Below are positions 15,001-62,411 of a stretch of DNA of 64,000 nucleotides, piece after piece. The first letter of the stretch is position 1; each line of letters begins with the position of its first letter. The DNA comes from Phytophthora sp. 'mugwort' (lineage: Eukaryota; Oomycota; Peronosporomycetes; Peronosporales; Peronosporaceae). The stretch covers positions 1,612,001 through 1,676,000 of the forward strand of contig JAUCEF010000018.1 of NCBI GenBank assembly GCA_033558025.1. Reading direction: 5' to 3'. The notes under the pieces were generated by a model that searched no databases, was not told the origin of the DNA, and saw nothing but the letters and a program-made list of their open reading frames with translations. Made by a program: the position numbers and the translations under genes.

Positions 15001-15095
15001 ACCCGTCGAAGAACTGCTAGATCCCCCCGACACAGACACACGTCCCGCTACTGTAGCCGAATCGCCAGACTGCACAGACACGTCGCCGCTACTAG
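1..15095 (-). repeat. Coding tandem array A, 2700 bp units, about 5.6 copies, truncated by window edge
   Basis: Base 1 onward recurs at 2701, 5401, 8101, 10801 and 13501 with only scattered substitutions. The unit is exactly 2700 bp = 900 codons, about 60 strands of 15 residues, so copy number can change without breaking the frame. Each unit carries one landmark strand, KVKIVGSANLQGAGGD (for example around 920-965), which holds the only two Lys codons I found in the unit. The array stops abruptly near 15095, where the sequence becomes unique. The left end is beyond the window. Confidence 0.95.
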
Positions 15096-18000
15096 CTGCG
15101 GATGAGAACCCCGAAGAGAGAGTCACACGTCCAGTAGAAGAGGTATGAGCGCGACCACTTCCCACTGATGTTGCTCCACTTGATCCTACAATACCTGACG
15201 CACCCCCAGTTGCACTAACCACTTGAATAGCTCCGCTCTGACTGAGACCCACGCCCGATGTGACTTGTACAGAACCTCCAAAACGACTGGTGCTCGGCCC
15301 ACCCCTAAGTGTGATAGCCCCGCCATCACTATTATCACGCGAAGAGGCGATAGCACTACCACCTTGTAGAAGGACGTTGCCCCCGGCGCCAGAACGTCCC
15401 GATAAAGAACCTGCAGAAATGTTGACGTTTCCGCCTAAACGCATCGCGGACGTGGGTCCGACTTGAATGGTCACATCTCCTGACACACCAGACGAGCGAC
15501 CAGCTGTTGTTATGCTGACCATACCGTTGGCTGATGCACTCAACGAGATTGATCCGCCACTTGAAGAGGAATCTACGCTTGCTCCTGTGGCGAGACGGAT
15601 GTCCCCCTGAGGTCCTTTGGAATTGCCAGTAGACAGGTACAACGAACCAGACTGACCCACTTTGCTGACCCCACTGGACAACTGTAATGAACCACTTGAG
15701 CCTTGCTTGACTTGGCCACTTGAGACGGAAACTAAACCGCTCCCTGCACGCGATATAGAAGCTTGACTGGTGAGCCTAATATCACCGCTCTGGCCAACCG
15801 CATTGACACCGCTCTGGACTGAAATACTGCCACCACTTCCACTAAATGAGCTGCTGCCGGCACTGACGACCACATCGCCGCCTTTTGCATTTCCGCTGGC
15901 CCCTGCTTGCAACAAGACAGATCCAGATCTAGAAGTAGCTGAACTTCCGGACTTGATAAGAATATCGCCGGATTGCAAAGCAGAAGCACTTCCTGTTTCG
16001 ATACGAATAAGTCCACTCTGCGAACCATCGCCAGAAGAAAGTTGCAAGTTTCCCCCAACAACCTTCGAGCCGGGCCCCGCGAGAACGTTGATGCTTCCGC
16101 CAGTTTCAGCGCCAGCTCCACCACCGACAGAGACCGACCCTCCGGCTCCAACCGTAGGCGCGGTCCCCCCGGCCAAAATAATTGATCCTGCAACCGTCGA
16201 CTTCCTTTTTCCAATAACGTCACCGCCTACTACAGAAACATTTCCACCGGCTGTAGAGTTGCTTGCGCCTCCTATCACAGTCACTTGACCGCCGTCCAAA
16301 ACTGAATCACGACCACGAACAACCACACCTCCTGCGTTGTAATTACCACTCGGCCCACCTCCGATACGAACAGTCCCGCCCACACTAGACCCAGACGACC
16401 CGCCATCAATCGACACGTCGCCACCTGCTCCCTGAAGGTTCGCAGACCCGACGATCTTTACTTTCTGCGCCGCTGACAAGCTATCCACGCTACCCCCGAC
16501 TAGCTCCACGTCGCCGCCAACAGCACTGCTATCGCCCTGGACGAGGCTCAGGCTGCCACCAGAACCGCTGCGGACAGACACATTGCTGCCAGCCGCACTG
16601 CTACCGGAGTTACCACTCGACACACTCACATCGCCGCCAACACCGCTCGATGACGAACCGCCAGACACACGAACAGCTCCGCCAGACCCGCTCGACAACG
16701 ATGAACCACCGCTCACATCCACGGACCCGGAAGACCCCGCCAGCGACTCCCCGCCACTCACGACAACACTGCCTCCCGACCCCGTCACACCGCCGGCACC
16801 GCCCAGCATGCTCACCAAGCCACCGACCCCTCTACTACTAGAGCCACTGGACACACGAACAGCGCCGGAACCACCGTCTACCGCGTCACCTGACACAAAC
16901 GACACATCACCAGATGCAGACGCAGCACTAGCCACACCGCTTCCGATAGACACAACACCACTCAAGTCATTGCCAATGCCACTCGACACAGTCACCGCAC
17001 CGCCCGTCGAAGAACTGCTAGATCCTCCCGACACAGACACACGGCCCGCCGCTGTAGCCGCTCCGCCAGTCTGCACAGACACGTCGCCGCTGCTAGACGC
17101 TCCCGAAGACCCGGAAGTCAGCGTCACCATACCCGATGCAACGTCCACCGACTCGCCACTTCCAATCGTCGTCGAGCCACTCCATGCGTCGCCACTCGCA
17201 GAAGCACCACTCACGACGCTCATGCTGCCGCTGCCCAGCAAACCCGTGCCAGATGAGATGTCCACGCCGCCGCCAACACCAGCCTCGCTCACGCCGCCGC
17301 TCAGAGAAACACCGCCTCCACTCACCACGCCCGTCGAGCCAGCACCACCGGACAGAGCAATGCCACCAGCTAAGCCAGAAGATGCGCTAAGAGAGCCACC
17401 GCGGACGCTCACCGACCCGCCGCCCACAGTGCTGTCCATACTAAGACCGGCCGAAATGTCGACCGCGCCACCGACTGCACTGCGACGAGCACCGCTAGAC
17501 AAACGTACCACGCCGTCCTCCCCGGACGATACCGTCACGGAGCCTCCGCGTGCGTTCGAGCTGCCAGTCCACCCCCCGCGGATCTCCACGCCGCCTGCAT
17601 CGGACGAGGTAGAATCACCACTCGACACGACAACAGACCCGCTCGATCCGCTAGCACTGCCGCCAGACATAATTGACAACGAACCTGACGCACTGGAATC
17701 AGCGCTGCCCGTGCCAATATCCACGTTGCCGCTCAAGCTCAAGCCCGTCACAGCCGCACTCGACACCGTAATGTTACCGCTGCCCGCACTAGCTGCGCCG
17801 CTCTGCAGCGACACTGTGCCGCCAATAGATGAAGATGACCCACTGCTGTCTCCGCCACGCACCGACACCGAGCCGCCGCTGGACGAGACACTAGATCCGC
17901 CAACGACGGTAACAGACCCGGACGCGCTGTCGATCGAGTCGCCGCTGCCCAACGTCACGTTGCCGGAAGCGCGTACAGTCGAAACGCCGCTCCTCACATC

Positions 18001-21000
18001 TACAGTCCCGCTGGAAGCGCCCGCAGACGAACCGACCAACACGTTGCCACTGACACCAGATGCGTCACTGCCGCTGCCGCTCACTACAGACACCGACCCG
18101 CCCTGGACACCAGAGCCGCCTGACACAGACACCAGACCGCCAGCGTTGTCCCCGGCAGAGCTGCCACCTTCCAACCGAACGGCGCCTGCCATAACTCCGG
18201 CAGACGGAGACACCAGCAGGGATGATCCACCCGCCAGCAACACGTCGCCCGCAGCAGACCCAGCACTAGATCCACTACGCACTTCGACGTTGCCGCCTTC
18301 AAAGGCAGACGAGCCCACCGACAAGCTGATGTTGCCCGCAGATCTACTGCTGCTCGATGCCGAGCCGGACGAGATCTGTACGCCGCCCGACCCTGCGCCA
18401 TCCCCACTCGACACACGCACCTTGCCGCTGCCGCTCAAGCCTTCTCCGCTGCGCAACACCACAGACGCACCAATGCCCGACGCACTCGTGCCGCCAGATA
18501 CCGCCACGTCGCCTCCCATCGCGCCCGCACCACCGGTCAACGCCAACGAGCCGCTTAAGTCGCCGGAGCTGCTGCCGCCGGACACACTCACAGACCCACC
18601 AACACCTGCAGCCTCGCCGCCGAACACGCTCACCGACCCGCTCGACTGCGCAAGCGACATACCTGAACTGATCGACACGGCACCAGACGAACCAGCCTCT
18701 GCCGACCCACTCGTCAAGGCCACCGCACCACTACTAACGGTTCTGGCACCGCCGTGAGAACCCAGCCTTACCGACCCGCTCGCCGTCGACAACCCGTCGC
18801 CGCTGAGGATGGTCACACTGCCACCGGTCAACGACGACGCGCCACCTACTACGGACACACTAGAGCCTTCACCACTCACGGAAGAGCCACCTGACACCTC
18901 GATCGACCCAGCACGAGCACCACCGGACCCGCTACCGATACGAACAGATCCACTAGACACGCTACTAGCACTAGTGAGCACCTCGATATCACCGCTAGAG
19001 CCGCCGGACACGACGCTCGTCGACAAAATCACGCCGCCGCTGCTCACGGTACCACCGCCGCTCGTCAGCAACACCGCACCGCCCATGCTCGACGCAGACG
19101 ACCCGCCATCAATCGACACGTCGCCACCTGCTCCCTGAAGGTTCGCAGACCCGACAATCTTTACTTTCTGCGCCGCTGACAAGCTATCCACGCTACCCCC
19201 GACTAGCTCCACGTCGCCGCCAACAGCACTGCTATCGCCCTGGACGAGGCTCAGGCTGCCACCAGAACCGCTGCGGACAGACACATTGCTGCCAGCCGCA
19301 CTGCTACCGGAGTTACCACTCGACACACTCACATCGCCGCCAACACCGCTCGATGACGAACCGCCAGACACACGAACAGCTCCGCCAGACCCGCTGGACA
19401 ACGATGAACCACCGCTCACATCCACGGACCCGGAAGACCCCGCCAGCGACTCCCCGCCACTCACGCCAACACTGCCTCCCGACCCCGTCATACCGCTGGC
19501 ACCGCCCAGCACGCTCACCAAGCCACCGACCCCTGTACTACTCGAGCCGCTGGACACACGCACAGCGCCAGACGCGCCGTCCACCGCATCGCCTGACACA
19601 AACGACATCTCGCCAGAAGCAGACGCAGCACTAGCAGCTCCACTCTCAACCAACACAATGCCGCTCAAATCACTACCAATGCCACTCGACACAGTCACCG
19701 CACCACCCGTCGAAGAACTGCTAGATCCTCCCGACACAGACACATGGCCCGCCGCTGTAGCCGCTCCGCCAGTCTGCACAGACACGTCGCCGCTGCTAGA
19801 CGCTCCCGAAGACCCGGAAGTCAGCGTCACCATACCCGATGCAACGTCCACCGACTCGCCACTTCCAATCGTCGTCGAGCCACTCCATGCGTCGCCACTC
19901 GCAGAAGCACCACTCACGACGCTCATGCTGCCGCTGCCCAGCAAACCCGTGCCAGATGAGATGTCCACGCCGCCGCCAACACCAGCCTCGCTCACGCCGC
20001 CGCTCAGAGAAACACCGCCTCCACTCACCACGCCCGTCGAGCCAGCACCACCGGACAGAGCAATGCCACCAGCTAAGCCAGAAGATGCGCTAAGAGAGCC
20101 ACCGCGGACGCTCACCGACCCGCCGCCCACAGTGCTGTCCATACTAAGACCGGCCGAAATGTCGACCGCGCCACCGACTGCACTGCGACGAGCACCGCTA
20201 GACAAACGTACCACGCCGTCCTCGCCGGACGATACCGTCACGGAGCCTCCGCGTGCGTTCGAGCTGCCAGTCCACCCCCCGCGGATCTCCACGCCGCCTG
20301 CATCGGACGAGGTAGAATCACCACTCGACACGACAACAGACCCGCTCGATCCGCTAGCACTGCCGCCAGACATAATTGACAACGAACCTGACGCACCGGA
20401 ATCAGCGCTGCCCGTGCCAATATCCACGTTGCCGCTCAAGCTCAAGCCCGTCACAGCCGCACTCGACACCGTAATGTTACCGCTGCCCGCACTAGCTGCG
20501 CCGCTCTGCAGCGACACTGTGCCGCCAATAGATGAAGATGACCCACTGCTGTCTCCGCCACGCACCGACACCGAGCCGCCGCTGGACGAGACACTAGATC
20601 CGCCAACGACGGTAACAGACCCGGACGCGCTGTCGATCGAGTCGCCGCTGCCCAACGTCACGTTGCCGGAAGCGCGTACAGTCGAAACGCCGCTCCTCAC
20701 ATCTACAGTCCCGCTGGAAGCGCCCGCAGACGAACCGACCAACACGTTGCCACTGACACCAGATGCGTCACTGCCGCTGCCGCTCACTACAGACACCGAC
20801 CCGCCCTGGACACCAGAGCCGCCTGACACAGACACCAGACCGCCAGCGTTGTCCCCGGCAGAGCTGCCACCTTCCAACCGAACGGCGCCTGCCATAACTC
20901 CGGCAGACGGAGACACCAGCAGGGATGATCCACCCGCCAGCAACACGTCGCCCGCAGCAGACCCAGCACTAGATCCACTACGCACTTCGACGTTGCCGCC

Positions 21001-24000
21001 TTCAAAGGCAGACGAGCCCACCGACAAGCTGATGTTGCCCGCAGATCTACTGCTGCTCGATGCCGAGCCGGACGAGATCTGTACGCCGCCCGACCCTGCG
21101 CCATCCCCACTCGACACACGCACCTTGCCGCTGCCGCTCAAGCCTTCTCCGCTGCGCAACACCACAGACGCACCAATGCCCGACGCACTCGTGCCGCCAG
21201 ATACCGCCACGTCGCCTCCCATCGCGCCCGCACCACCGGTCAACGCCAACGAGCCGCTTAAGTCGCCGGAGCTGCTGCCGCCGGACACACTCACAGACCC
21301 ACCAACACCTGCAGCCTCGCCGCCGAACACGCTCACCGACCCGCTCGACTGCGCAAGCGACATACCTGAACTGATCGACACGGCACCAGACGAACCAGCC
21401 TCTGCCGACCCACTCGTCAAGGCCACCGCACCACTACTAACGGTTCTGGCACCGCCGTGAGAACCCAGCCTTACCGACCCGCTCGCCGTCGACAACCCGT
21501 CGCCACTGAGGATGGTCACACTGCCACCGGTCAACGACGACGCGCCACCTACTACGGACACACTAGAGCCTTCACCACTCACGGAAGAGCCACCTGACAC
21601 CTCGATCGACCCAGCACGAGCACCACCGGACCCGCTACCGATACGAACAGATCCACTAGACACGCTACTAGCACTAGTGAGCACCTCGATATCACCGCTA
21701 GAGCCGCCGGACACGACGCTCGTCGACAAAATCACGCCGCCGCTGCTCACGGTACCACCGCCGCTCGTCAGCAACACCGCACCGCCCATGCTCGACGCAG
21801 ACGACCCGCCATCAATCGACACGTCGCCTCCTGCTCCCTGAAGGTTCGCAGACCCGACAATCTTTACTTTCTGCGCCGCTGACAAGCTATCCACGCTACC
21901 CCCGACTAGCTCCACGTCGCCGCCAACAGCACTGCTATCGCCCTGGACGAGGCTCAGGCTGCCACCAGAACCGCTGCGGACAGACACATTGCTGCCAGCC
22001 GCACTGCTACCGGAGTTACCACTCGACACACTCACATCGCCGCCAACACCGCTCGATGACGAACCGCCAGACACACGAACAGCTCCGCCAGACCCGCTGG
22101 ACAACGATGAACCACCGCTCACATCCACGGACCCGGAAGACCCCGCCAGCGACTCCCCGCCACTCACGCCAACACTGCCTCCCGACCCCGTCATACCGCT
22201 GGCACCGCCCAGCACGCTCACCAAGCCACCGACCCCTGTACTACTCGAGCCGCTGGACACACGCACAGCGCCAGACGCGCCGTCCACCGCATCGCCTGAC
22301 ACAAACGACATCTCGCCAGAAGCAGACGCAGCACTAGCAGCTCCACTCTCAACCAACACAATGCCGCTCAAATCACTACCAATGCCACTCGACACAGTCA
22401 CCGCACCACCCGTCGAAGAACTGCTAGATCCTCCCGACACAGACACATGGCCCGCCGCTGTAGCCGCTCCGCCAGTCTGCACAGACACGTCGCCGCTGCT
22501 AGACGCTCCCGAAGACCCGGAAGTCAGCGTCACCATACCCGATGCAACGTCCACCGACTCGCCACTTCCAATCGTCGTCGAGCCACTCCATGCGTCGCCA
22601 CTCGCAGAAGCACCACTCACGACGCTCATGCTGCCGCTGCCCAGCAAACCCGTGCCAGATGAGATGTCCACGCCGCCGCCAACACCAGCCTCGCTCACGC
22701 CGCCGCTCAGAGAAACACCGCCTCCACTCACCACGCCCGTCGAGCCAGCACCACCGGACAGAGCAATGCCACCAGCTAAGCCAGAAGATGCGCTAAGAGA
22801 GCCACCGCGGACGCTCACCGACCCGCCGCCCACAGTGCTGTCCATACTAAGACCGGCCGAAATGTCGACCGCGCCACCGACTGCACTGCGACGAGCACCG
22901 CTAGACAAACGTACCACGCCGTCCTCGCCGGACGATACCGTCACGGAGCCTCCGCGTGCGTTCGAGCTGCCAGTCCACCCCCCGCGGATCTCCACGCCGC
23001 CTGCATCGGACGAGGTAGAATCACCACTCGACACGACAACAGACCCGCTCGATCCGCTAGCACTGCCGCCAGACATAATTGACAACGAACCTGACGCACT
23101 GGAATCAGCGCTGCCCGTGCCAATATCCACGTTGCCGCTCAAGCTCAAGCCCGTCACAGCCGCACTCGACACCGTAATGTTACCGCTGCCCGCACTAGCT
23201 GCGCCGCTCTGCAGCGACACTGTGCCGCCAATAGATGAAGATGACCCACTGCTGTCTCCGCCACGCACCGACACCGAGCCGCCGCTGGACGAGACACTAG
23301 ATCCGCCAACGACGGTAACAGACCCGGACGCGCTGTCGATCGAGTCGCCGCTGCCCAACGTCACGTTGCCGGAAGCGCGTACAGTCGAAACGCCGCTCCT
23401 CACATCTACAGTCCCGCTGGAAGCGCCCGCAGACGAACCGACCAACACGTTGCCACTGACACCAGATGCGTCACTGCCGCTGCCGCTCACTACAGACACC
23501 GACCCGCCCTGGACACCAGAGCCGCCTGACACAGACACCAGACCGCCAGCGTTGTCCCCGGCAGAGCTGCCACCTTCCAACCGAACGGCGCCTGCCATAA
23601 CTCCGGCAGACGGAGACACCAGCAGGGATGATCCACCCGCCAGCAACACGTCGCCCGCAGCAGACCCAGCACTAGATCCACTACGCACTTCGACGTTGCC
23701 GCCTTCAAAGGCAGACGAGCCCACCGACAAGCTGATGTTGCCCGCAGATCTACTGCTGCTCGATGCCGAGCCGGACGAGATCTGTACGCCGCCCGACCCT
23801 GCGCCATCCCCACTCGACACACGCACCTTGCCGCTGCCGCTCAAGCCTTCTCCGCTGCGCAACACCACAGACGCACCAATGCCCGACGCACTCGTGCCGC
23901 CAGATACCGCCACGTCGCCTCCCATCGCGCCCGCACCACCGGTCAACGCCAACGAGCCGCTTAAGTCGCCGGAGCTGCTGCCGCCGGACACACTCACAGA

Positions 24001-27000
24001 CCCACCAACACCTGCAGCCTCGCCGCCGAACACGCTCACCGACCCGCTCGACTGCGCAAGCGACATACCTGAACTGATCGACACGGCACCAGACGAACCA
24101 GCCTCTGCCGACCCACTCGTCAAGGCCACCGCACCACTACTAACGGTTCTGGCACCGCCGTGAGAACCCAGCCTTACCGACCCGCTCGCCGTCGACAACC
24201 CGTCGCCGCTGAGGATGGTCACACTGCCACCGGTCAACGACGACGCGCCACCTACTACGGACACACTAGAGCCTTCACCACTCACGGAAGAGCCACCTGA
24301 CACCTCGATCGACCCAGCACGAGCACCACCGGACCCGGTACCGATACGAACAGATCCACTAGACACGCTACTAGCACTAGTGAGCACCTCGATATCACCG
24401 CTAGAGCCGCCGGACACGACGCTCGTCGACAAAATCACGCCGCCGCTGCTCACGGTACCACCGCCGCTCGTCAGCAACACCGCACCGCCCATGCTCGACG
24501 CAGACGACCCGCCATCAATCGACACGTCGCCACCTGCTCCCTGAAGGTTCGCAGACCCGACGATCTTTACTTTCTGCGCCGCTGACAAGCTATCCACGCT
24601 ACCCCCGACTAGCTCCACGTCGCCGCCAACAGCACTGCTATCGCCCTGGACGAGGCTCAGGCTGCCACCAGAACCGCTGCGGACAGACACATTGCTGCCA
24701 GCCGCACTGCTACCGGAGTTACCACTCGACACACTCACATCGCCGCCAACACCGCTCGATGACGAACCGCCAGACACACGAACAGCTCCGCCAGACCCGC
24801 TGGACAACGATGAACCACCGCTCACATCCACGGACCCGGAAGACCCCGCCAGCGACTCCCCGCCACTCACGCCAACACTGCCTCCCGACCCCGTCATACC
24901 GCTGGCACCGCCCAGCACGCTCACCAAGCCACCGACCCCTGTACTACTCGAGCCGCTGGACACACGCACAGCGCCAGACGCGCCGTCCACCGCATCGCCT
25001 GACACAAACGACATCTCGCCAGAAGCAGACGCAGCACTAGCAGCTCCACTCTCAACCAACACAATGCCGCTCAAATCACTACCAATGCCACTCGACACAG
25101 TCACCGCACCACCCGTCGAAGAACTGCTAGATCCTCCCGACACAGACACACGGCCCGCCGCTGTAGCCGCTCCGCCAGTCTGCACAGACACGTCGCCGCT
25201 GCTAGACGCTCCCGAAGACCCGGAAGTCAGCGTCACCATACCCGATGCAACGTCCACCGACTCGCCACTTCCAATCGTCGTCGAGCCACTCCATGCGTCG
25301 CCACTCGCAGAAGCACCACTCACGACGCTCATGCTGCCGCTGCCCAGCAAACCCGTGCCAGATGAGATGTCCACGCCGCCGCCAACACCAGCCTCGCTCA
25401 CGCCGCCGCTCAGAGAAACACCGCCTCCACTCACCACGCCCGTCGAGCCAGCACCACCGGACAGAGCAATGCCACCAGCTAAGCCAGAAGATGCGCTAAG
25501 AGAGCCACCGCGGACGCTCACCGACCCGCCGCCCACAGTGCTGTCCATACTAAGACCGGCCGAAATGTCGACCGCGCCACCGACTGCACTGCGACGAGCA
25601 CCGCTAGACAAACGTACCACGCCGTCCTCGCCGGACGATACCGTCACGGAGCCTCCGCGTGCGTTCGAGCTGCCAGTCCACCCCCCGCGGATCTCCACGC
25701 CGCCTGCATCGGACGAGGTAGAATCACCACTCGACACGACAACAGACCCGCTCGATCCGCTAGCACTGCCGCCAGACATAATTGACAACGAACCTGACGC
25801 ACTGGAATCAGCGCTGCCCGTGCCAATATCCACGTTGCCGCTCAAGCTCAAGCCCGTCACAGCCGCACTCGACACCGTAATGTTACCGCTGCCCGCACTA
25901 GCTGCGCCGCTCTGCAGCGACACTGTGCCGCCAATAGATGAAGATGACCCACTGCTGTCTCCGCCACGCACCGACACCGAGCCGCCGCTGGACGAGACAC
26001 TAGATCCGCCAACGACGGTAACAGACCCGGACGCGCTGTCGATCGAGTCGCCGCTGCCCAACGTCACGTTGCCGGAAGCGCGTACAGTCGAAACGCCGCT
26101 CCTCACATCTACAGTCCCGCTGGAAGCGCCCGCAGACGAACCGACCAACACGTTGCCACTGACACCAGATGCGTCACTGCCGCTGCCGCTCACTACAGAC
26201 ACCGACCCGCCCTGGACACCAGAGCCGCCTGACACAGACACCAGACCGCCAGCGTTGTCCCCGGCAGAGCTGCCACCTTCCAACCGAACGGCGCCTGCCA
26301 CAACTCCGGCAGACGGAGACACCAGCAGGGATGATCCACCCGCCAGCAACACGTCGCCCGCAGCAGACCCAGCACTAGATCCACTACGCACTTCGACGTT
26401 GCCGCCTTCAAAGGCAGACGAGCCCACCGACAAGCTGATGTTGCCCGCAGATCTACTGCTGCTCGATGCCGAGCCGGACGAGATCTGTACGCCGCCCGAC
26501 CCTACGCCATCCCCACTCGACACACGCACCTTGCCGCTGCCGCTCAAGCCTTCTCCGCTGCGCAACACCACAGACGCACCAATGCCCGACGCACTCGTGC
26601 CGCCAGATACCGCCACGTCGCCTCCCATCGCGCCCGCACCACCGGTCAACGCCAACGAGCCGCTTAAGTCGCCGGAGCTGCTGCCGCCGGACACACTCAC
26701 AGACCCACCAACACCTGCAGCCTCGCCGCCGAACACGCTCACCGACCCGCTCGACTGCGCAAGCGACATACCTGAACTGATCGACACGGCACCAGACGAA
26801 CCAGCCTCTGCCGACCCACTCGTCAAGGCCACCGCACCACTACTAACGGTTCTGGCACCGCCGTGAGAACCCAGCCTTACCGACCCGCTCGCCGTCGACA
26901 ACCCGTCGCCGCTGAGGATGGTCACACTGCCACCGGTCAACGACGACGCGCCACCTACTACGGACACACTAGAGCCTTCACCACTCACGGAAGAGCCACC

Positions 27001-30000
27001 TGACACCTCGATCGACCCAGCACGAGCACCACCGGACCCGCTACCGATACGAACAGATCCACTAGACACGCTACTAGCACTAGTGAGCACCTCGATATCA
27101 CCGCTAGAGCCGCCGGACACGACGCTCGTCGACAAAATCACGCCGCCGCTGCTCACGGTACCACCGCCGCTCGTCAGCAACACCGCACCGCCCATGCTCG
27201 ACGCAGACGACCCGCCATCAATCGACACATCGCCACCTGCTCCCTGAAGGTTCGCAGACCCGACGATCTTTACTTTCTGCGCCGCTGACAAGCTATCCAC
27301 GCTACCCCCGACTAGCTCCACGTCGCCGCCAACAGCACTGCTATCGCCCTGGACGAGGCTCAGGCTGCCACCAGAACCGCTGCGGACAGACACATTGCTG
27401 CCAGCCGCACTGCTACCGGAGTTACCACTCGACACACTCACATCGCCGCCAACACCGCTCGATGACGAACCGCCAGATACACGAACAGCTCCGCCAGACC
27501 CGCTCGACAACGATGAACCGCCGCCGATGTCCACGGACCCAGCCGTTTGTCCGGTCCCAGTAAGGCCTGCCTGGACTGTTACTAAGCCTGGTGATGCCGA
27601 TGCGGTAGAACCAGATCGAAGTTGGATCGACCCGGACGGTTTAGATGTGGTTTCTCCGGATTCGATGATAACGCTGCCAGTTGCGCTCGTATCTGACTGT
27701 TGCGTTTGCATTGTTATCGCTCCACCGGTTTCTTGCGGTGCTCTTGGTGTCAAAATTGATATAGCACCCGAGTTAATTTGTCCGCGCCCTGAAACAAGAG
27801 TCACGTTGCCGCCGAGACTTGCAGAATCTCCAGCTTGTATAATCACGTTACCTGGTGAACGCGGGGCTATAGAAGTGCTAGTTTTTTTATCCGAAGTACG
27901 CCCGGACCAAATCTCAATATTTCCACTCTTCTCCAGCCCAGTACCAGTTTCCAAAGTCAGGGAACCAGCTCCACGAATGCTTCGAGCTGATGCCGTGGAA
28001 AGTTTTGCATCCCCAGAGCGAGTGTCGCTGCTTGCAGTCTGTAACTGCACATCACCAGCATCATTGGACATTTGGTCTGATCCCGCATTTACAATGAATT
28101 CGCCAAAAACCCGAGTGGATGCTGATGTGACATTAACAACTCCTTTTGCACTAGCAAACGAGTCGCCTGTGCTTATGGCAATTGACCCGCTCTCTCCAAA
28201 TGCAGATAAACCCGTCGTCACGGAGATACTTCCGCTGTTTCGACTCCCGCGAGAATCAGGAGTCTGCACGATCACATCTCCTGGACCCTCGTTGTTTTTG
28301 CCACTTGCAATCACCACACTGCCAGCCGCTGTTCCGCTCCCTTCGGAAGACCCTGCTTCGAGTACTAAGGTCCCGCCGTCACCAGCTATACTGTCTCCGA
28401 CTCGAATGTTGATTGCACCGGAATTGGCTTGGGCCCTTCCACTCGCAACATTAACATCCCCACTTCTACTGAGGCTGGACGATCCGGTTTCGATACTGAT
28501 ATCGCCGCTACTTCCACTGGTGGAAGCGTTTGTGTAGGACCCCGCATCTGCCGTTGTGATGTCAATCCGCCCACTTTGCGCTTCACTGTTGGGACCAACC
28601 TTGAAGCGTTTGTGCTGGGCATGGATAGCAGCGATTAAATCCATCGTGATCTGCTGCTTATTCACTTCGTGAAATTGCTCCAGACTGAAATTTTTCTCGG
28701 GAAGCGTAAGCGTTGATATAGTCACGTATTCTGGAAATGTCTCCTGCGCTTGCTGAGCAATTACACCACGAACAGTCACGTCTGGGATCCCGCGAATTTC
28801 TCGCCACATGTCAGAATAGCGATATTGTTTCACCTCAAGGGTTTGCAGACGCTGGAGGATGTCGTCTTCGTCAATATCTTCGATATTCGTCTTGATCCGG
28901 CGGTCTGACGGGTACGTGATCTCGGTGATCTGCGCTGGAACGTGGCTGATCATCTTGTTCGCCTGCATTCGCCAGATTACTCCTCCAGGCACAATGGTTT
29001 CCCCATGCGATACCGTTAGTTCGCCGCGCTCAATGCTGACGTTCATATTGCTGCCGCCGCGAATTTCCATTGATGAAGTTGTGGCCGCCTTCAAACTGAT
29101 GGATCCACCACCTGAAACGCTCACGTGGGAAGCAGTGGCGTTCGTTCCCGATATCACCACATCGCCGCCGCCAGACCTCAGCGTCAGGCGCCCACCCGTT
29201 CCGGCAGTTGCGGAGGCTGTCCCACTAACGATTTCAATGTGTCCGCCCTTGGCAGAGCCGTTGCCGGATGCTAGAATAACGTTACCTCCGTACAAAGCAG
29301 TGCTTGTGCCAACTACCATTCGGAGTGATCCGGTGGGGCCGCTTTGACTGGAGCCAGTATGAAGAGTGACATCCCCACTAGTTCCGGTCGTTGCATCTCC
29401 ACTTCCAATGTCCGCCCCACCACTTAAAGAAGAGCTGGCAGTTACTGCGGTCAAAGTACCGCTAGCAGTACCCAAACCAGTGGTGATGTGAACTGAGCCA
29501 CCGTTGTTTAGAGAAGGAGAAGTAGACGAACCACTTTGAATCGCGATATCACCACCTGTGACCCATGCACTTGACGACCCAGTAATGGATACAGTGCCTC
29601 CACCAGTGGAACCCGTACCAGCGCTTACCTCTACGCTGCCACTCTGCTGATTACTGGAGCTCCCAGACGAGATCTTCACACTGCCGGACGTACCAATACT
29701 GTCAAAAGTTCGAAGACGCAGCACACCACTGTCGCCATCTGCTCCAGCTTCCCCAGATTGCACGGTGACTCCACCACTAACTTGTCCGGGGCCTGAAGAC
29801 ACAATGACAGATCCACCAAGTGCAGAAGGGTTTTTACCGCCAGTAAGATAAATGGAGCCGCCATCGTCTACTTCCCCGTTGCCGCCTTGAATATCAACAA
29901 CCCCCCCCTTTCCCGCTGTTGTAGACCCAGTGAAAAGACGGACAGGACTCGATGAAGCTCGGCCAGACCCTGACCCAATCTCAACATGTCCGCTGCTGGT

Positions 30001-33000
30001 GGTGCTGTCCGCAGACTGAATCAGTATTCCACCGCTATCGGCATTTTCACTTGCACCTGACATGAGCAAAAGTTTACCTCCATTTAAGGTCGTTCCTGGT
30101 CCAGATCGAAGAGACAGCGACCCACCAGTCTTGCCAGCGCCAGCGGTGACCGCAGTATTACCCCCAGTAGCAGTTTCTGACCCACCGGCACCAAGTGCTA
30201 CATCGCCACCATCACCGAGTGCGCCAGTCGTGCTTCCGGCAGACAAAGTCAGCAAGGAACCCTTCGTTTGAGAGCAGGGTCCAGCAGCAACCGAGATACT
30301 ACCTCCATTAACCCCTGATCTCCCTGTCTGAATATCTACGTGGCCAGCAGCATGTTGAAGTGAGTTTCCGGTAGAAATGTGAACGGCTCCAGTAGACGTG
30401 GTAGAAGCGATACCAGCATCGGCAGTTGAAATGGAGATAGACCCCGACGAGACTGGTCCGGCCCCTGTACTAAGGCTAATCGCCCCCCCAGTCCCCGAAA
30501 CAGCTTCTCCAGCGGCCAATGAGATGTTTCCGCTGTTCGCTCCTAGATGAACTATGAAGTTGCCTCCAACCCCAGAACTGCTGTTTCCAGTGCCCATAAC
30601 AATAGAACCTGGGACACCAGCATCGGTAGTTCCAGTGGACACTGCAATGAATCCGGAAACTCCAGTACCAGTGTCACCGGAGGTGATAGTCACATCCCCC
30701 GTAATGCCGACTGGTGACAGACCTGATGATACAGAAATGGAGCCAGAGCTTACGGCACCTTGCCCGGTCACGACTCCAATAAGTCCACTGCTCCCATCAA
30801 CGGAGGCATCTTGCGTTTGTAGCGTGACATCTCCACTAGATGAAATTGAATTTGCGCCACTCATAATGCTTACTGCGCCACCTGACGCAGCAACAGCTTC
30901 ACCACCATGAATAGTAACACTTCCACCAGCGTCGGTCGCAAAGGACCCTCCATAACTTTTCCCACCCATCAGTTTTACAGAACCGCCGCGACCACCACCA
31001 GCTTCCTCGTCTCCTAGCCCTACGCCGCCAACAACGGTGATACTACCAGCGATAGCATCTTTAGCTTGAAGCGCATCTCCGCCAGTAATGTCGATAGACT
31101 GGCCGTTTCCGGCGCTTGCCTTCCCTGCAGAGACTTGGATACCAGCACCATCCGACACAGCACCTAGACCAGTGCTAAGAACGATTGCTCCGACAGAGCT
31201 GGCTGCCGAATCACCGGTTTTCAAGGAGATTTGTCCAGAGGAGCCCTCATCTTTCGCTGAATCTGGCGTTTCTAAGGATAGGTGACCGCTAGAGGTTGCC
31301 GAGTTGTATCCCGTTACGATACCAACCTTACCACCTCTGGCCTTCGAAGAGTCGGTCGAACCCGCAGAGACAGAGACGTCTCCACCTGCAGAATTTGAGT
31401 TTGATCCCGTGCCGACGGCAATATTAATTGAGCCTGCTCTCCCACTCTTTGCACCACCGGTCTGCATGTCGATACTACCCGATCCAACGAGGCTTGAACT
31501 ACCGGTGTGTACCTGAATGGAACCTGTCAAACTGGATGCATCAGCCGAATCGATCGAGACGTCGCCACTTGCTGTCATTTCCGAGGCACCAGAAAGGATT
31601 GCAACTGCTCCGCCGGTCGACACTGCGGCGGTTCCACCAGAAATAGCAATTTTCCCCCCTTGGTCGCGTACCTTGTTCGTGCCATCAGACGACCCCGCCA
31701 CAATCTCCACATCACCCCCGTTGCCGCCATCCTTGTCATCTGTCGAGCGTCCTCGACCGCCAGCAAGGCGAACGTGGCCCCCTCGAGCACGGGCAGCTGT
31801 AGAGTCTCCTCCAATCAGTTGAACCGCTCCGCCATCACCAATTGACCCGACACCGACTGCGACAGTGATGTTGCCACCTCCACCCCTGGCGGCACCGCCA
31901 GTGAGAACTGAAACATTTCCGGAGCCGGGCATATCAGTCGAGTCCCCTGTTTGAATCACCATTGAGCCAGAATACCCTGTTTTGCCTGCACTAGCGGTCG
32001 ACACAGTCACACGTCCACTGGACGTCGCCGAGCTCTTTCCAGACTGTATCGCAACACTGCCACCACCATCTGTGTGGGTCGTCGCTCCAGCAAGAACAAT
32101 CACGCTTCCACCCTGTCGACCAACGCCCGCACCCACAGAAAGTTGTATATCTCCGCCAGCTCCGCGTTCCGACGAGCCTGAGCTAAGAGTCACGCTGCCG
32201 GAAGAACCACCTCGCGCTTCCCCCGTATGCAAATTGATAACACCACTCCCGCTATTACTACCACTGCGATCAGAGCTAACATCGATGTCGCCACTAGATC
32301 CAGTCAGCGAGAAGCCTGAAACAAGGAGAACTGATCCGCCCTTGTCCGTAGAAGTACTTCCCGCCTGAACATACACATTTGATGAGTCTTGGAGGCTAGA
32401 GCCACCTTGCACAGTAATGTCTCCACTCGTCCCTTTTGTCGCTGAGCCAGAGCGCAACGTGATACCTCCACTAGCCTCGTTAGCCGTCGCACCAGTGCCG
32501 ACGCTGATGCTCCCAGACGAACGAGTACCCTTTTCAAGAGAGTCTCCTGTGAGGATTCTCACATCGCCACTTGAGGAGGAGGTTGCATTGCCAGTTATGA
32601 TTGCGACATAGCCACCAGTTGCAGCATTGCCTTTCCCGCTAAGCAAGCGAATGGATCCACCGACGTCGTTCGTGAAACTTTTACCACTAGCATCTCCACC
32701 TGATACGATAATCTCACCCCCATCTCCGCCATCCTTTTGGTCACTACTCGTACCGCTTCCCGCAGTAAGGGCGATCTTTCCACCAACTGAAGATGAATCC
32801 GAAGTATCCCCAGCTCGGGCGATTATATCACCTCCGTTTCCCATGCGACCTGTGCCAACTGAGACCTGTACATTTCCACCGTGGCCTCCCGTCGAGCTAC
32901 CGGTTGTCAAAGAGATCACACCCGAGTCCCCTTGCACAGCTGTTCCGGAGGAAACAGCAAGAGATCCGCTAACTCCAGCGATCCCGGAGTTATCAGTGTT

Positions 33001-36000
33001 CACATGAATGCTGCCACTGTCACCCTTCGTGCTGTATCCAGATGAAACAACGACGTTTCCACCAGATTGTCCCACTGCAGACGTTGATCCGGCCTTCAGC
33101 TTTAAGTCGCCACCAGACTTCGAACGACTGTTACCAAGAGTGACGTCAATACTACCACTGCTGCCTTTTTCGGAATCGCCTGTCCGTAGGGTATAGCTAC
33201 CCGAGTCATCGACTTCGGATTTGCCAGTGTGGACTATAATCGACCCACTGACGCCGTAGAACCCCGAATTAGACGTACGAATTTCGATATCTCCACTCGA
33301 ATAAAATTCTGGGACGCCGGAAATAATACTAACAGCACCGCCACTTCCTTTATGGGCTTGGCCACCTTGAATTGTAACAGCTCCAGCTGTATACGAAACA
33401 TAAGTTGCGTTAGAAGGCACAATTCGCTAAAGTACGGTCAAGTTAATCAGACTGGGCTTACCGATATCACCGCCATGTTGGCCTCCAGCATAGCCGCCAA
33501 CGACGTTGACAGGACCGCCCTTTCCGCCCCAGAGAGCATTGCGGTTGGTTCCACGACCACCCGTTATATCAACTTCACCACCCGTCGACTTCATGTCGCT
33601 CATATCACCGGCAGTAACAGTAACACGACCGCCACTGCCTGTAGAACCAGATCCAACAGAAACAATGATGTCGCCTGCTGGTCCAGGTCCAGAGTTTCCT
33701 GTCACTACAAAAAGTGATCCACTTGGGCCTGCAGTTGTATTTCCAGTTTGAAGCTGAAGCGTTCCTGACACTCCTTTCTTGCCAGAATCGACAGTCATGA
33801 GCGCCATATCTCCGCTGCTGGAAGCCATGCCCGTACCAGAAAAGAGCTCAACCTTGCCACCAGTTGAGGTCCTGCTTGTTCCTCCTTCAACGTGAACCAT
33901 TCCTCCGATGTCACTGTCGGCTTTCCCACCCATACCTTGGCCTCCGCGAACTTGAACAGCACCACCATCGCCTCCATTGCTTGGGCTGATGCTTGTGCCA
34001 GCACCTGCTAAAAGGGAAATCCCACCTCCCACTTGGGCGGCCGCTGCAACAAAACCATACACATCATCACAAGAAGGTTTACATACGTTGCAAAAGAATT
34101 TTAAATATACCAAGAGCTTACCAGAGGTATCCCCAGCAGTAACGTTCACATCACCACCGTTGTTAGTATCTCCCACGCCAACGGATACAATCACGTTGCC
34201 GCCATGACCCTTCTTCGCAAACCCCGTGACAAATGTTATTGCGCCACTATCCGTCGACGAGCTTTTGCCAGTAGTAAGCGCCAATGATCCCGATCCACCT
34301 TCTGGTCCACTGTTCGGCGTCTGGACCAGAAAGTCACCAGACGTTGATCGCACCGAACCACCAGTAGTAAGGGTGATCGAGCCTCCAGTGTGCTTCTGAA
34401 GAGCAAGTCCGGCGCTAACAGTCACATCTCCTCCCGGATTCTCGGTGTTGTTTCCAACAGAAAGAGAAATATATCCACCTTTGCCCTTCAGAGCTTGCCC
34501 GCTATACAAGCTGATCTCACCACTATCACCAGCTGTAGTGTCACCTGTACTGACAATTGCAGAACCACTCGTACCCTTTGCTCCCGATGCAGCAGTTGCA
34601 ATAGACACTGCGCCGCTCGATGTGGTCGCACTAAAGCCGGTATCAAGACGAATGCTGCCACCGCGTCCTCTGCTCGCATAGCCACCCTCCAAAGAAATAC
34701 CTCCGCCGGTGTTAACTATAGTACTCCCGCCTTGCGAAGCTCCACCCGTGACCTTTACGACACCACCGTTACCGCCATTGGTGAAAGCTGGGCTGGTTCC
34801 CTCTCCGGCCTGGATGGCCACTGTTCCTCCCGTTCTGCCGGCATCGGTTGTCGCGCCAGCAGTCAGCTGAATTTGACCACCATCCGTTTTCGTTCCGGTA
34901 CCGACCATAGCGATAAAATCGCCTCCATGCCCAAGCGTTGCCGTACCTGTCGCAAATACGAGTGCACCTGAATCTGTAGCAGTAGCCGTTCCAGTTTGAA
35001 GCTTAACGCCGCCGCTTCCTCCCGCTCCCCCAGCGTTAGCTGTATTCATCGTGATATCACCGCTCGAGGTTGCCTGACTTGCGCCAGAGAAAAGTGATAT
35101 AAGGCCTCCCGTGCGAGAGTCGGTCGTACTACCCGCTTCCATGGAGATCAAGCCTCCCTCACCAAAGTCACCGTTGCCGACAAGCACCTGGAACTGACCC
35201 CCTTTGCCACTTTTAGCCGTGCCGGTAGTGAGACTGATCGGACCAGAATTTCCGTACGACGACGTTCCAGTGGCGAGAGTGACCATCCCGCTTATACCAC
35301 GCGAACCCGAATTAGGCGTCGTGAGGTACACAGACCCACTGGAACTGGCAACTCCAGATCCAGATGACATGGTCAAATCACCTCCGTAGCCATAGGACCC
35401 TCGACCTGCCGCAACGTAAATGCTGCCACCATTATCAAGCGAGTTTGAACCACGTGCTTCACCGCCAATAATGTCAACGTCGCCGCCGTCTCCTCCGTCT
35501 ACGGCATTTGTGCTTGAGCCAGTGCCACCAGTTAGCACCACTTTGCCTCCGGTGCGCCCCATCCCTGATGATTCCCCTGCATTGACTTGAAAGTCTCCGC
35601 CGTCAGTGGCATCACCAGCTCCGACAGCAACTTGAATAGATCCACTATTACCTCTCGATGCTGTGCCCGTGGTCAACTTCAAAATCCCAGCAGTGCCGTC
35701 AGGGCTGTTTCCAGTCGCTATGGACATCGTGCCACTCATACCTCCACTCGCAGCCTGAGCTGATGCAATTTCAACAGCACCACTCCAAGAATCAGTGCTT
35801 CCCCCGGAAACCATCTTGATGTTACCACCAATGCCACTTTGTGCTTCACCGCCCTGTATAAAGATTGCACCACCGGTATCTTGAGCAGCAGATCCGAGCG
35901 ACGAGCCGCCAGAGAGCACAACCCGGCCGCCATCACCTCCATCACCTGAATTGTCACTCGTACCGGAGCCTCCTCGTAAGAACAGAGCTCCGCCTGTGGT

Positions 36001-38731
36001 AGCAGCATGCTTCGAAGAGCCAGATTCGACAGTTATGTCACCACCGTCACCAATGTCATTAGAACCGACGATGAGTGAAGCACTCCCAGCTTGACCTTCA
36101 GACATTCCAGTTCCAAGGCTAATTGCTCCAGGTCTTCCCAATAGCGTACTGCCGGTATACAGAGCAATGATCCCTGAGTCGCCGAACGCAGCTGCGTTAG
36201 CAGTCATCAAGTGAACTGCACCGGATGAACTTAGACTTGATGCGCCGCTCGCAAGTTTAACAGCACCTCCAACTGACGAGGTGCTACCTCCGCCTTGAAA
36301 TAGAAGTTCGCCACCATTCCCGTCGATGGACTGACCCCCGGCAAGCTTAACTCGGCCGCCGTCTCCTTCCGCTTGAGAATGAAGTCCGTGACCACTACCT
36401 CCAGCAATACTAACCTCTCCCCCAACTCCGCCATTTGAAGACACACCAGACCCACTGGTAAGCTTAATATCGCCACCTGCACCGCTGTCAACAGCTGTGT
36501 CACCACTAGCAATGCTAACGCTGCCGGGTATGCTTTCCGATGAGGATCCAGCTTGAACTTGCACATGTCCCGCAGGGCTACGAATAGTGTACCCTGTTCC
36601 AACGACAACACCTCCCGATTCGCCTCGAGCAGCCGATCCACTCGAAAGACTAACGGATCCTGAGCCCTTTCCAAGGGCACTAGTCGCTGTTGCCACCTCA
36701 ATACTTCCACTAACTCCTGATGTGCTCTCTCCAGATGACAGGTAGATTGCCCCACCAATGCCACTTTCAGTTGGTCCACCAGTAAGAACAACTCCACCAC
36801 CATTTCCAACGACTGCCTTGCCTCCATCTAGCTGAATACTGCCGCTGTTGCCCTCGGTCGAGCTACCACTGGATATCACAACGCGCCCTGAGTCTGGAAT
36901 GGAAGTTCCTGTTGAAAGACGAATGCCGCCACTGCTGCCTTGAGCCCCTGCCGCCGTCTGGATAACTACAGCTCCACTCGAGTCATTCTGGCTAAGACCA
37001 CTAAGAATCGTGACAGACCCACCCGCACCACCGGTTGCATTGCCGCCTACTACAATCACGTGACCACCGACGGATGTGTTTAACGTCCCCATCGAAGCTC
37101 CACCGCTAATAGTCGTTGTACCCCCGGCGGAGTCCTCAGCGTTTCCTCCATCACCTCCTATGAGTTTGACTGAGCCTCCGGTGCCTCCTAATTTGGTTGT
37201 GGAGCCTGCTGTAGCAAGAATCTCTCCACCTTTATCAGAGTTTCCGGTCCCAACCTTAAGAGAAATGGATCCAGCACCCGATTCGTTTGCGCTTCCAGTA
37301 AACAGAAGCAACGGGCCAGTCGATCGAGAAGACGAGTTTCCCGACCCAATTACGACGGCGCCGCTAGAACCGTTCACCCCCGAGTTGCCTGTTACGATAA
37401 CCACTTCACCAGAAGCTTTCGTGGCAGACGTTCCAGTCTCCATGCGCACAGACCCACCGACTGCGACTCCGCCAGATGATCCTGCTAGTATGACAACGTT
37501 GCCTCCCTTACCATCGTTGGAAGAACCGCTGGATAGTACAATCGACCCTGCTTCCTTCAAGGAAGAAGTACCGGTGCGAAGTTCGATGGGACCCGATGTC
37601 CCCTCTAACGCGACACCAGTCTCTATAATAACCCTCCCGGAATCGCCCTTGTTGGTGACGCCGGCGGTTTTGAGTGTGACACTGCCACTAGACGAGGCAG
37701 AGCTCGTACCAGAAGCAAGGCTGATTGATCCGCCGGTGGCCGCGCCTTCACCACCAGTCATGTCGATATCACCTCCGGTCCCGACCTTTGATATTCCACC
37801 AAACAGCTTCACAGCACCACCCATGACCGAGTTATCGAAGTTCTGGATACCAAGCCCGTCGCCTCCGGAGATCTTGACAACGCCCCCACGTCCACGGTTC
37901 TGATGCACTCCGTTGCCAGCAGCAATGTCCACGTCACCACCAGCCATGTTGAACCTATTGTCGTCGCCACCACGTAGCTTGATATTGCCGCCTGACTGCA
38001 CGGCTACAGTCGATTGGTTCACAACAAAGGAATAGTTCGTCGAATGTTTGGTAACACCCGTGACAACGACCCCCCTGCGCACATTCGGCGGTTCCTGGTG
38101 GATGATGACATCCCCGACAATGATCGTCTCTGCTCCGTCATTAAACCGCAATACCAATAACATTAGCCACCTCATTTGCTACCCCTCATATACATAACAC
38201 CAAATTCAATGCACACACGCACTCACCTGGAACAATCACCGTCGGGCACGGCGCGTCGCTGACGAGCACCTTGCACCCGGAGCCGAATCCCTCTTCCACT
38301 GCCATGCATGATGCATCGGATGCGCACCACGCGCACTCGTTTGACACAGCACAGCTGCCGCAGTCGGTAATGGTGTTGCACTGCGGGTTCACAGGGCAGG
38401 CTTCTGCCTCCGGGATCCAGTCGCTGCACCAGATCTGGTAGCTGGCGAACGGACCGTGGAGGTTGCCGGACACACACGTAAGTGTGGACCGGCAAAAGCC
38501 GCATGACGGCTCGGCGGCGCATTCGTAGCAGCGGTCCATTGCCTCCCAGAACGGGGTGTCCGGGGGTGGCGACAGAGCCGAGCAGTTGACTGACGTCACG
38601 TCCGCGTCGTCGCGCGTCCACGACTTGATCGCCGTAGGTGCCGACGAGACTGGCATTATCTGGAGAGTCCAGATGCCCAGCAGACTCGCCGCGACAAGAA
38701 GTATCATATCTCGCTTGTTGTTTCTTGTCAT
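1..38731 (-). CDS. Giant secreted Gly/Ser-rich repeat protein with internal S74 chaperone domain (3' end outside window)
   Basis: Start chosen at 38731, because the next residues form a signal peptide: basic start (MTRNNKRD), hydrophobic core ILLVAASLLGIWTLQIM, likely cut after VSSA. Residues about 40-165 are Cys-rich, with two PSI/plexin-like modules (CYECAAEPSCGFC and CGSCAVSNECAWC). Predicted exons: 38227-38731, 34122-38129, 33462-34043, 33386-1, giving 12,827 residues with no stop. The remainder is about 15-residue strands of the form SGGxVxVxSGxSxxx, almost free of Cys and very poor in Lys, which suggests a beta-solenoid. A predicted peptidase S74 domain lies near residues 3190-3290. Exported, extracellular or cell-surface fibrous protein is an inference; the S74 family in phage tail spikes and MYRF trimerises beta-rich stalks and cuts itself off. 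I know no named homologue. The frame is certain; the first splice junction is the least certain part. Oomycete zoospore vesicle, adhesive or flagellar-hair proteins are possible roles, unproven. Confidence 0.85.
15096..16390 (-). other. Non-amplified coding linker between arrays A and B
   Basis: About 1.3 kb with the same open minus frame and the same Gly/Ser strand pattern (for example GGSINVLAGPGSKVVGG and QSGSLYLSTGNSKGPQGD), but single copy and visibly less GC-rich than the arrays. It corresponds to residues about 7365-7795 of the predicted protein. It resembles the unique coding part at 28.9-38 kb in composition, suggesting that it keeps an older, non-homogenised version of the repeat. 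Confidence 0.8.
16391..27540 (-). repeat. Coding tandem array B, 2703 bp units, about 4.1 copies
   Basis: The same sequence recurs at 16583, 19286, 21989, 24692 and partly 27395, a spacing of 2703 bp (901 codons). Copies are nearly identical to each other. The unit is homologous to the array A unit and shares its KVKIVGSANLQGAGG landmark, but most of it has clearly diverged from A, apart from near-identical blocks around the landmark. The array ends near 27540, where the sequence becomes single copy. All copies keep the minus frame open. Confidence 0.95.
27541..33386 (-). repeat. Degenerate, non-homogenised 15-residue coding repeats flanking the S74 domain
   Basis: Single-copy DNA that encodes the same strand pattern in protein (G-G/S-x-V/I-x-V/L-x-S/T-G-x-x-x), but without long nucleotide repeats. 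On the N-terminal side, into exon 2, a longer protein period of roughly 150 residues or more is visible, marked by GGDGGxVxLxGG (for example DGGDGGRVVLSGG and DGGDGGDVDIIGG, 148 residues apart). The S74 domain interrupts it at 28591-28923, and strands resume directly after with NSEAQSGRIDITTADAGS. Confidence 0.8.
28591..28923 (-). other. Peptidase S74 (intramolecular chaperone auto-processing) domain within the giant ORF
   Basis: Minus-strand translation gives a block unlike the flanking repeats: EITYPSDRRIKTNIEDI, then LEVKQYRYSDMW, then VRGVIAQQAQETFPEYVTI, then ITMDLIAAIHAQHKRF. The S-D-R-R-I-K-xN-I opening, the Y-x-Y strand and the G-V-I-A-Q-x-x-x-xx-FPE-x-V core are the signature of the endosialidase C-terminal chaperone (S74), known from phage tail spikes and the eukaryotic factor MYRF. 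The family cleaves between the Ser and Asp of the SD motif; here these are Ser3192 and Asp3193 of the predicted protein (codons 28903-28908). The domain is preceded by a non-Gly-rich beta segment (MEIRGGSNMN..ERGELTVSHGETIVPGG). Unusually, it is followed by thousands more repeat residues rather than the protein end. Confidence 0.85.
33387..33461 (-). other. Intron 3 of giant gene (75 bp)
   Basis: Donor ATCG^GTAAGC at 33461 and acceptor CGTATACAG at 33387. Retention would give a stop at 33427-33429. Splicing restores GGDI-AGAVTIQGGQAHKGSGGAV in perfect repeat register and connects to the frame that stays open to the left edge of the window. Confidence 0.9.
34044..34121 (-). other. Intron 2 of giant gene (78 bp, in frame, no stop)
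   Basis: Donor TCTG^GTAAGC at 34121 and acceptor TTTTGTTGCAG at 34044. The 78 bp have no stop and are a multiple of three, so the unspliced message also reads through. The encoded segment is Cys-, Phe- and Tyr-rich (KFFCNVCKPSCDD), completely unlike the surrounding Gly/Ser strands, which supports its being an intron. Splicing joins DTS to AAAQVGGGISLLAG. Confidence 0.85.
38130..38226 (-). other. Intron 1 of giant gene (predicted)
   Basis: Donor CCAG^GTGAGT at 38226 follows the Cys-rich module. The acceptor ACGGAGCAG at 38130 is the first I found that restores the frame (phase 1) into ETIIVGDVIIHQEPP. Nearer AG dinucleotides give the wrong phase or an immediate stop. A weaker alternative is a phase-0 donor at GTGTGT joined to the TAG at about 38180, which would add a short hydrophobic stretch (MRWLMLLVLRF). 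Confidence 0.6.
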
Positions 38732-61740: not shown

Positions 61741-62378
61741 GAAGCGGACATGCTTGCCCTTACCCGTCGGACGTGGCAAGCCCCGTAGAGCCTTAGTCCC
61801 AACGCGCCACTTCCGCGAGACTTCAGAAGAGCTGACATCTAGGTCAAGTCACCAGTCACCAGTCGCCAGTGCAGTCTTGTGAACTGAGCGGCCAGCAGCT
61901 ATAGCTTCCTCGTACAAATGCAACAAACGATGATAACGTGTTGTCGGGGGCGCCTTCTGGGCTACACAGAGAGATCTCGGCGTAGACCAGTGGCATGTCC
62001 ACCGTGGCGTGGCACGACATTGTTCGTCGTCCCCTTGCCATCATCGCGACGTCGACAGTCCCGGCTTTACAAGGATATGGTTTATGTGCGTTACACAAAC
62101 CACCTCTGATAGGTTGAAATCGAACATGCGTTGTAATTGGTCAGATCTGGCCAATCGCATTAGGTCATGAAGAGGCAGCTACGGGGGGATTCAGATTCTT
62201 CCGCATTGCCACTTCAAGCCTCGCAGACCGCAGAGCAGAGAGCCTCACCAGCGCTTGACCTCCCTTCTCCTCTGTACTGTTAGGCCTCCGCTCCGACACT
62301 CGCAGCGCCCCGCTCTCGTCCGAAGCCCGTGCGTGTTACATCTAAACACGCCACCCCCCCCCGCCTCGCACCGCCGTG
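61741..62378. other. Intergenic between SARNP-like gene and myosin gene
   Basis: No frame with a recognisable product. Presumably carries the 3' end of the SARNP-like transcript and the myosin promoter. Confidence 0.6.
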
Positions 62379-62394
62379 TCATTTCTCCATTCCG
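62379..62394 (+). promoter_or_regulatory. Candidate initiator for myosin gene
   Basis: TCATTTCTCCATTCC contains two overlapping-style Inr matches (TCATTTC and CCATTCC) and resembles the extended oomycete start-site consensus. It lies only about 20-33 bp before the ATG, which would give a short leader. Confidence 0.45.
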
Positions 62395-62411
62395 CGCTGC
62401 GACCGGAAATC

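Follow-up and report, generated by a model that had tools for sequence, protein, structure and literature searches.

A giant predicted Phytophthora solenoid protein with two internal S74 domains, a candidate self-processing fibre precursor

Results

An S74 domain inside a giant solenoid protein

Here, we analysed a 64,000-nucleotide stretch of contig JAUCEF010000018.1 of Phytophthora sp. 'mugwort' (hereafter, the window) and identified an S74/ICA domain within a predicted secreted solenoid protein of 43,157 residues and 3.8 MDa, encoded on the minus strand by a gene of four predicted exons. An internal S74 that cuts its own chain is already known from MYRF; what is new here is a second S74 in the same protein, with the same catalytic dyad and encoded by the same exon. 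The reading that we favour, and hold to be somewhat probable as a whole, is that the gene encodes a self-processing precursor of three extracellular fibre chains.

The identity of the first domain (S74 no. 1) is virtually certain, and the match lies far beyond chance. On the translated stretch, PF13884 aligned over positions 1-57 of its 58 (E 8.7e-14, 52 bits against a cut-off of 22; window 28908-28723, minus strand), and a search of the whole 86.26-Mb genome recovered the same site at E 4.2e-13. This profile check had been proposed in an earlier note on this DNA and upholds its claim of an S74 domain inside a giant eukaryotic protein; the SDRRIK and RGVIAQ...FPEYV motifs are intact, in line with its statement on SDRRIK and the GVIAQ..FPE core. 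Searching the PDB with phmmer returned the ICA domain of MyRF (7dc3) as the top match (E 3.8e-9, window 28926-28621; sole other row E 0.22), and a profile search gave the same structure at E 1.1e-11 (sole other row E 0.1), with 29 of 101 residues identical. The best phage tail-fibre profile, PHROG 1980 (E 2.5e-19), covered the stalk together with the domain, and Foldseek, run on a weak single-chain AlphaFold2 (AF2) model, ranked the MyRF ICA domain first and the phage chaperone 3gw6 second.

The reading frame around window 28591-28923 is open on the minus strand up to the window edge, and exon 4 contains neither an N nor an internal stop. The spliced model places the catalytic pair at Ser3192 and Asp3193, in agreement with the earlier residue count. 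A long chain does follow, but the earlier figure of 9,500 or more residues gives way to 39,965 after Ser3192. The signal peptide, the Cys-rich head and the solenoid shaft, built of a 15-residue unit, were likewise borne out. The head matches the PSI domain (PF01437, E 3.1e-5) at 24.6 bits, barely above the cut-off of 23.1, and this match is missing from the results of the genome-wide profile search. Beyond residue 60, hydropathy peaks at 1.65 over 19 residues, leaving no convincing membrane stretch besides the signal peptide, and the C-terminal end is a short Cys cap. Such a product would be spliced and exported as the precursor of a giant solenoid fibre, which may serve at the surface or in the matrix.

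A second S74 domain at a segment border

S74 no. 2 lies in exon 4 outside the window (C18:1590971-1591156; Ser19776, motif PSDRRIK), 16,584 residues beyond S74 no. 1, and is followed by a further 23,381 residues. SDRRIK is present in both copies, and the core motif reads GVIAQ in S74 no. 1 and GIIAQ in S74 no. 2. With two S74s in the chain, the single cut and two products envisaged earlier become three predicted products.

Both domains stand at segment borders. After the head and the non-tandem shaft, S74 no. 1 is followed by 901-residue units (4.0 copies) and 900-residue units (13.1 copies), and S74 no. 2 by units of 514 (7.8 copies), 417 (40.3 copies) and 219 residues (2.4 copies) and then the cap. 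S74 no. 1 thus parts the non-tandem shaft from the 901/900 arrays, and S74 no. 2 parts those from the 514/417 arrays. This layout would suit an origin by fusion, in which fibre genes that each closed with an S74 were joined to a third one that carried a different cap. Along the plus strand at window 1454-14434 and 16583-26866, regular antisense open frames recur about once per 2,700-base unit, five of them 726 aa and four 724 aa long; they seem to arise mechanically from the repeats.

Coding constraint is evident both before and after S74 no. 2. The in-frame ratio of nonsynonymous to synonymous differences (pN/pS) was 0.262 in the 900 array (13 copies), 0.275 in the 901 array (4), 0.355 in the 514 array (7) and 0.305 in the 417 array (40), whereas the remaining two frames of these four arrays gave 1.0 to 3.5; the 219 array has two identical copies and is therefore uninformative. 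How many copies each array holds is assembly-dependent. The cores of the two S74s share 75 of 115 residues, with identities of 0.69, 0.83 and 0.37 at codon positions 1, 2 and 3, and this combination of conserved residues with divergent third positions indicates an old duplication held by selection.

Homologues and phylogeny

Protein searches returned 12 homologues (1 + 11), all of them database fragments of 196-780 aa. Identity to the S74 no. 1 query was 90% in P. infestans, 88% in P. sojae, 88% in Phyca11, which we take to be P. capsici, and 76% in Nothophytophthora sp., while a P. oleae homologue with 55% identity to S74 no. 1 pairs with S74 no. 2. These identities place the DNA in Phytophthora or a very near relative and make an origin from any of the species at 88-90% unlikely. 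PITG_01491 of P. infestans, named S74 domain-containing protein in UniRef, and PHYSODRAFT_500080 of P. sojae are the 90% and 88% identical entries, orthologous to S74 no. 1 and including solenoid on its flanks; they are recorded as fragments of 392 aa and 449 aa, respectively, in which the giant frame and the second S74 are invisible. No paper on either locus name was found in the open-licence literature.

Loss of the catalytic site in orthologues had been named earlier as a point against the domain; the S-x4-K dyad is kept in 9 of the 10 homologues that cover it (P0001-P0007, P0009 and P0010), P0008 and P0012 beginning after the Ser. The tenth, the metagenome protein P0011, has Ala where the catalytic Ser would be but retains the Lys and still matches the profile (PF13884 E 1.1e-7), which makes it, judged by sequence, a natural candidate for a non-cutting S74. 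In P0005, from Nothophytophthora, S74 no. 1 continues into a 900-type repeat; among the homologues compared here, this alone hints that the wider layout extends to another genus.

Two trees were compared. The first used shortened homologue rows, taken from a gapped alignment, and included viral-looking, phage and L019 rows (L019 being a further S74 locus described below); the second used full homologue rows and MyRF and left out the viral-looking, phage and L019 rows, with only 1 of its 10 inner branches starred and the bootstrap unsettled. S74 no. 2 and P. oleae pair in both (98/92 in the first, 93/98 in the second). The S74 no. 1 rows, including Nothophytophthora, group at 95/98 in the first tree, with its shortened rows, and this group is unsupported in the second. 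The same first tree separates the giant S74s from five viral-looking rows (85/96, shortened rows). We argue neither for shared ancestry with MYRF nor for a recent capture because the MyRF, phage and L019 rows form long branches without resolved placement. In the search for viral and prokaryotic relatives, a scan of viral contigs with the S74 alignment matched 68 stretches by pattern and a scan of genome contigs matched 59, none of which was confirmed in either case; tblastn against phages returned 6 records covering at most 43% of the query, with 29.5-33.6% identity in the rows.

Competence for cleavage and trimerisation

In MyRF, cutting occurs at the P586/S587 junction and is abolished by S587A or K592A (PMC8326128; this and the other papers given by PMC number are cited from excerpts). 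On our alignment, the Ser-Lys dyad (S587/K592), R590, Y615, Y617, I637, Q639, F666 and V669 of MyRF are identical in S74 no. 1, position 587 being Ala in 7dc3, whereas F621 is changed to Trp, I663 to Leu, F657 to Pro and L667 to His. In Bdellovibrio Bd3182, the cut falls at S782, and the mature tip was traced to A781, before the catalytic Ser (PMC10769870). Since both proteins cut just before the catalytic Ser, cleavage is expected at Pro3191|Ser3192 with Ser as the new N-terminus, rather than between Ser and Asp with a start at Asp3193, as the earlier note had proposed.

The MyRF trimer is driven mainly by the coiled coil N670-K705 (PMC8326128). In the AF2 model, the helix after S74 no. 1 spans 16 residues, about half the length of that in MyRF, after which solenoid resumes. 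The helix looks alike in the eight homologue rows that run through it (P0001-P0007, and P0011 to its end), and P0009 and P0010 end or diverge inside it.

Other S74 and solenoid genes in the genome

The genome search yielded 97 S74 matches, two of them in the giant gene. Among ten further loci that were translated, nine (L020-L028) are by eye short phage-type fibre genes, and beside one of these (L023) a Pox_A32-type ATPase frame (E 4e-8) points to an endogenous viral element. The tenth, L019 (2804-5467; G000:C18 about 67800-70500, including C18:70030), is an 888-aa frame with an EGF head (PF07974, E 3e-7), beta repeats, a C-terminal S74 (SDERFK) and a helical tail; it looks like a small cellular S74 protein on the same contig as the giant gene. 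Ten of the genome's S74 matches share a score of 40.7 bits between C12:2.34 and 2.73 Mb, and some matches elsewhere contain in-frame stops. A second giant solenoid frame of 17,510 aa (G000:C7 about 2344000-2394000; L036, L039, L040) has a Cys-containing C-terminal cap similar to that of the giant gene and, by eye, a signal-peptide-like start upstream; the genome search gave no S74 match in it.

The features of the giant gene inside the window are listed in the table below. Ordinary genes lie nearby on the plus strand, namely a protein kinase (window 56251-57729, PF00069 E 4.3e-64) and a myosin head (window 62376-63998, PF00063 E 3.6e-138).

Table 1. Parts of the giant gene and its S74 no. 1 region, in window coordinates
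Feature	Position	Strand	Remarks
Exon 1	38227..38731	-	signal peptide; Cys-rich head (16 Cys within residues 1-162) that matches PSI
Predicted intron 1	38130..38226	-	97 bases, GT..AG
Exon 2	34122..38129	-	N-terminal solenoid shaft
Predicted intron 2	34044..34121	-	78 bases
Exon 3	33462..34043	-	shaft
Predicted intron 3	33387..33461	-	75 bases
Exon 4, part inside the window	1..33386	-	continues to the stop at C18:1521008; 124,379 bases in total
Stalk directly before S74 no. 1 (GGVIWRMQANKMISHVPAQITEITYP and preceding residues)	28927..29040	-	homologue alignment; strands in the low-confidence AF2 model
S74/ICA domain no. 1 (MyRF-length match)	28621..28926	-	Pfam core 28723-28908
Catalytic motif S-D-R-R-I-K	28891..28908	-	Ser3192 codon 28906-28908, Lys3197 codon 28891-28893; expected cut directly before Ser
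901-residue tandem array, 4.0 copies	16498..27411	-	pN/pS 0.275
900-residue tandem array, start (13.1 copies, extends past the window)	1..15009	-	pN/pS 0.262

Discussion

Comparison with known S74 systems

Titin and PKZILLA represent the size class of the largest eukaryotic proteins; the giant protein is comparable to them in this respect only and is unrelated in sequence and role. S74/ICA domains are known for finishing the spikes of phages, the fibres of bacteria and MYRF, with one per protein in the cases that we met, and in the top-ranked open-licence literature we found no published report of a giant secreted solenoid chain with two S74s at its borders. Among the closest known systems are MYRF/MyRF, together with Dictyostelium MrfA, which share the internal eukaryotic S74/ICA, the Ser-Lys dyad, GVIAQ and the preceding beta stalk. 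The earlier note had held that S74 normally sits at the very C-terminus; MYRF, which carries an internal S74 and cuts itself there (PMC3742443, PMC3742440), provides a eukaryotic precedent. Unlike MYRF, the giant protein is a secreted solenoid with two S74s and a shorter helix. No Pfam match to a MYRF-type NDT80-like DNA-binding domain was found in exon 1, most of exons 2-3 or the 400 aa around S74, and hydropathy revealed no MYRF-type membrane span after S74.

The phage fibres and spikes (endosialidase 3gw6, T5 L-shaped fibre 4uw8, PHROG 1980) share an SD...K S74 after a beta stalk. Their S74 is C-terminal and departs from the mature trimer, whereas here the chain continues after S74 no. 1, and neither copy occupies the C-terminal position typical of phage. 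The Bdellovibrio MAT fibre protein Bd3182 is likewise secreted and fibre-like with an SDxxxK S74 and cuts at its catalytic Ser (PMC10769870), but it is bacterial and about 900 residues long, and its S74 ends the protein. In MAT fibres, the signal peptide is followed by a conserved beta domain about 130 aa long; the head found here is Cys-rich and PSI-like.

Proposed processing and its alternatives

By analogy with these systems, the 43,157-residue precursor would be exported, and each S74 would bring three chains into register and help the preceding stalk to fold, as in phage spikes and MYRF; afterwards it would cleave the chain that carries it, immediately ahead of the catalytic Ser (Ser3192 and Ser19776). 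The predicted products are a head-and-shaft chain (1-3191), a chain of 16,584 residues beginning with S74 no. 1 (3192-19775) and one of 23,382 residues beginning with S74 no. 2 and ending in the short Cys cap (19776-43157). More tentatively, we consider it possible that each of these trimerises into a long fibre and that the three fibres perhaps belong to a composite hair on the zoospore surface.

Several observations weigh against self-processing. The short C-terminal helix implies that either the flanking solenoid supplies the missing drive for trimerisation or the trimers are weak; P0011 has lost the Ser yet keeps its fold match; and solenoid continues on both sides of S74. These would fit S74s that act solely as trimerising or folding nodes, with no or partial cutting and a fibre that remains a single chain some 43,000 residues long. 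We regard this as a serious but clearly less probable alternative, given the dyad in both copies and in nearly all homologues covering it and the identity of most MyRF residues important for cutting. The frame itself might be inflated or joined by the assembly, the real gene or genes being shorter and the S74s perhaps lying in separate proteins. Array copies are mostly 91-100% alike at the main lag, and the copy number may therefore be wrong; moreover, a search aimed at homologues of 2,200-7,000 aa found none among 6,133 candidates, and the database homologues are short fragments. The uninterrupted exon 4, the in-frame pN/pS of 0.26-0.36 in the four arrays that flank S74 no. 2 and the passage of P0005 from S74 no. 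1 into a 900-type repeat make such an artefact unlikely. That the S74s are passengers, functionless remnants of captured viral fibre genes spread by repeat expansion, seems highly improbable. The genome does hold many viral-looking S74 genes (nine of the ten further loci inspected), but the old duplication under strong constraint, the orthologues of both copies in other species and the separation from the viral-looking rows in the first tree all argue otherwise.

Returning to the self-processing precursor, its fibre could belong to the flagellar hairs (mastigonemes) of zoospores rather than to the wall, a cyst coat or an adhesive, although we consider this rather doubtful. The named homologues presumably all come from zoospore-forming genera. 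Assuming a rise of 0.48 nm per 15-residue unit, the shaft would measure about 1.4 micrometres, or about twice that if three chains intertwine. Size is the only point in favour, the type-1 mastigonemes of P. parasitica being 1.5 micrometres long (PMC9068220), and the agreement is a coincidence worth testing, no more. Conversely, all three mastigoneme proteins known from Phytophthora are of the EGF type, with 64 kDa for the one that was blotted, and the excerpts of that paper mention neither S74 nor a giant protein (PMC12223298).

Apart from any processing, it is remarkable to find purifying selection on a predicted protein of 43,157 residues. If the proposed processing is true, it would represent a new use of S74, in which a eukaryotic chain folds and divides itself at the segment borders of an extracellular solenoid, and the giant protein stands as a specific candidate for surface or matrix fibres of great length in oomycetes.
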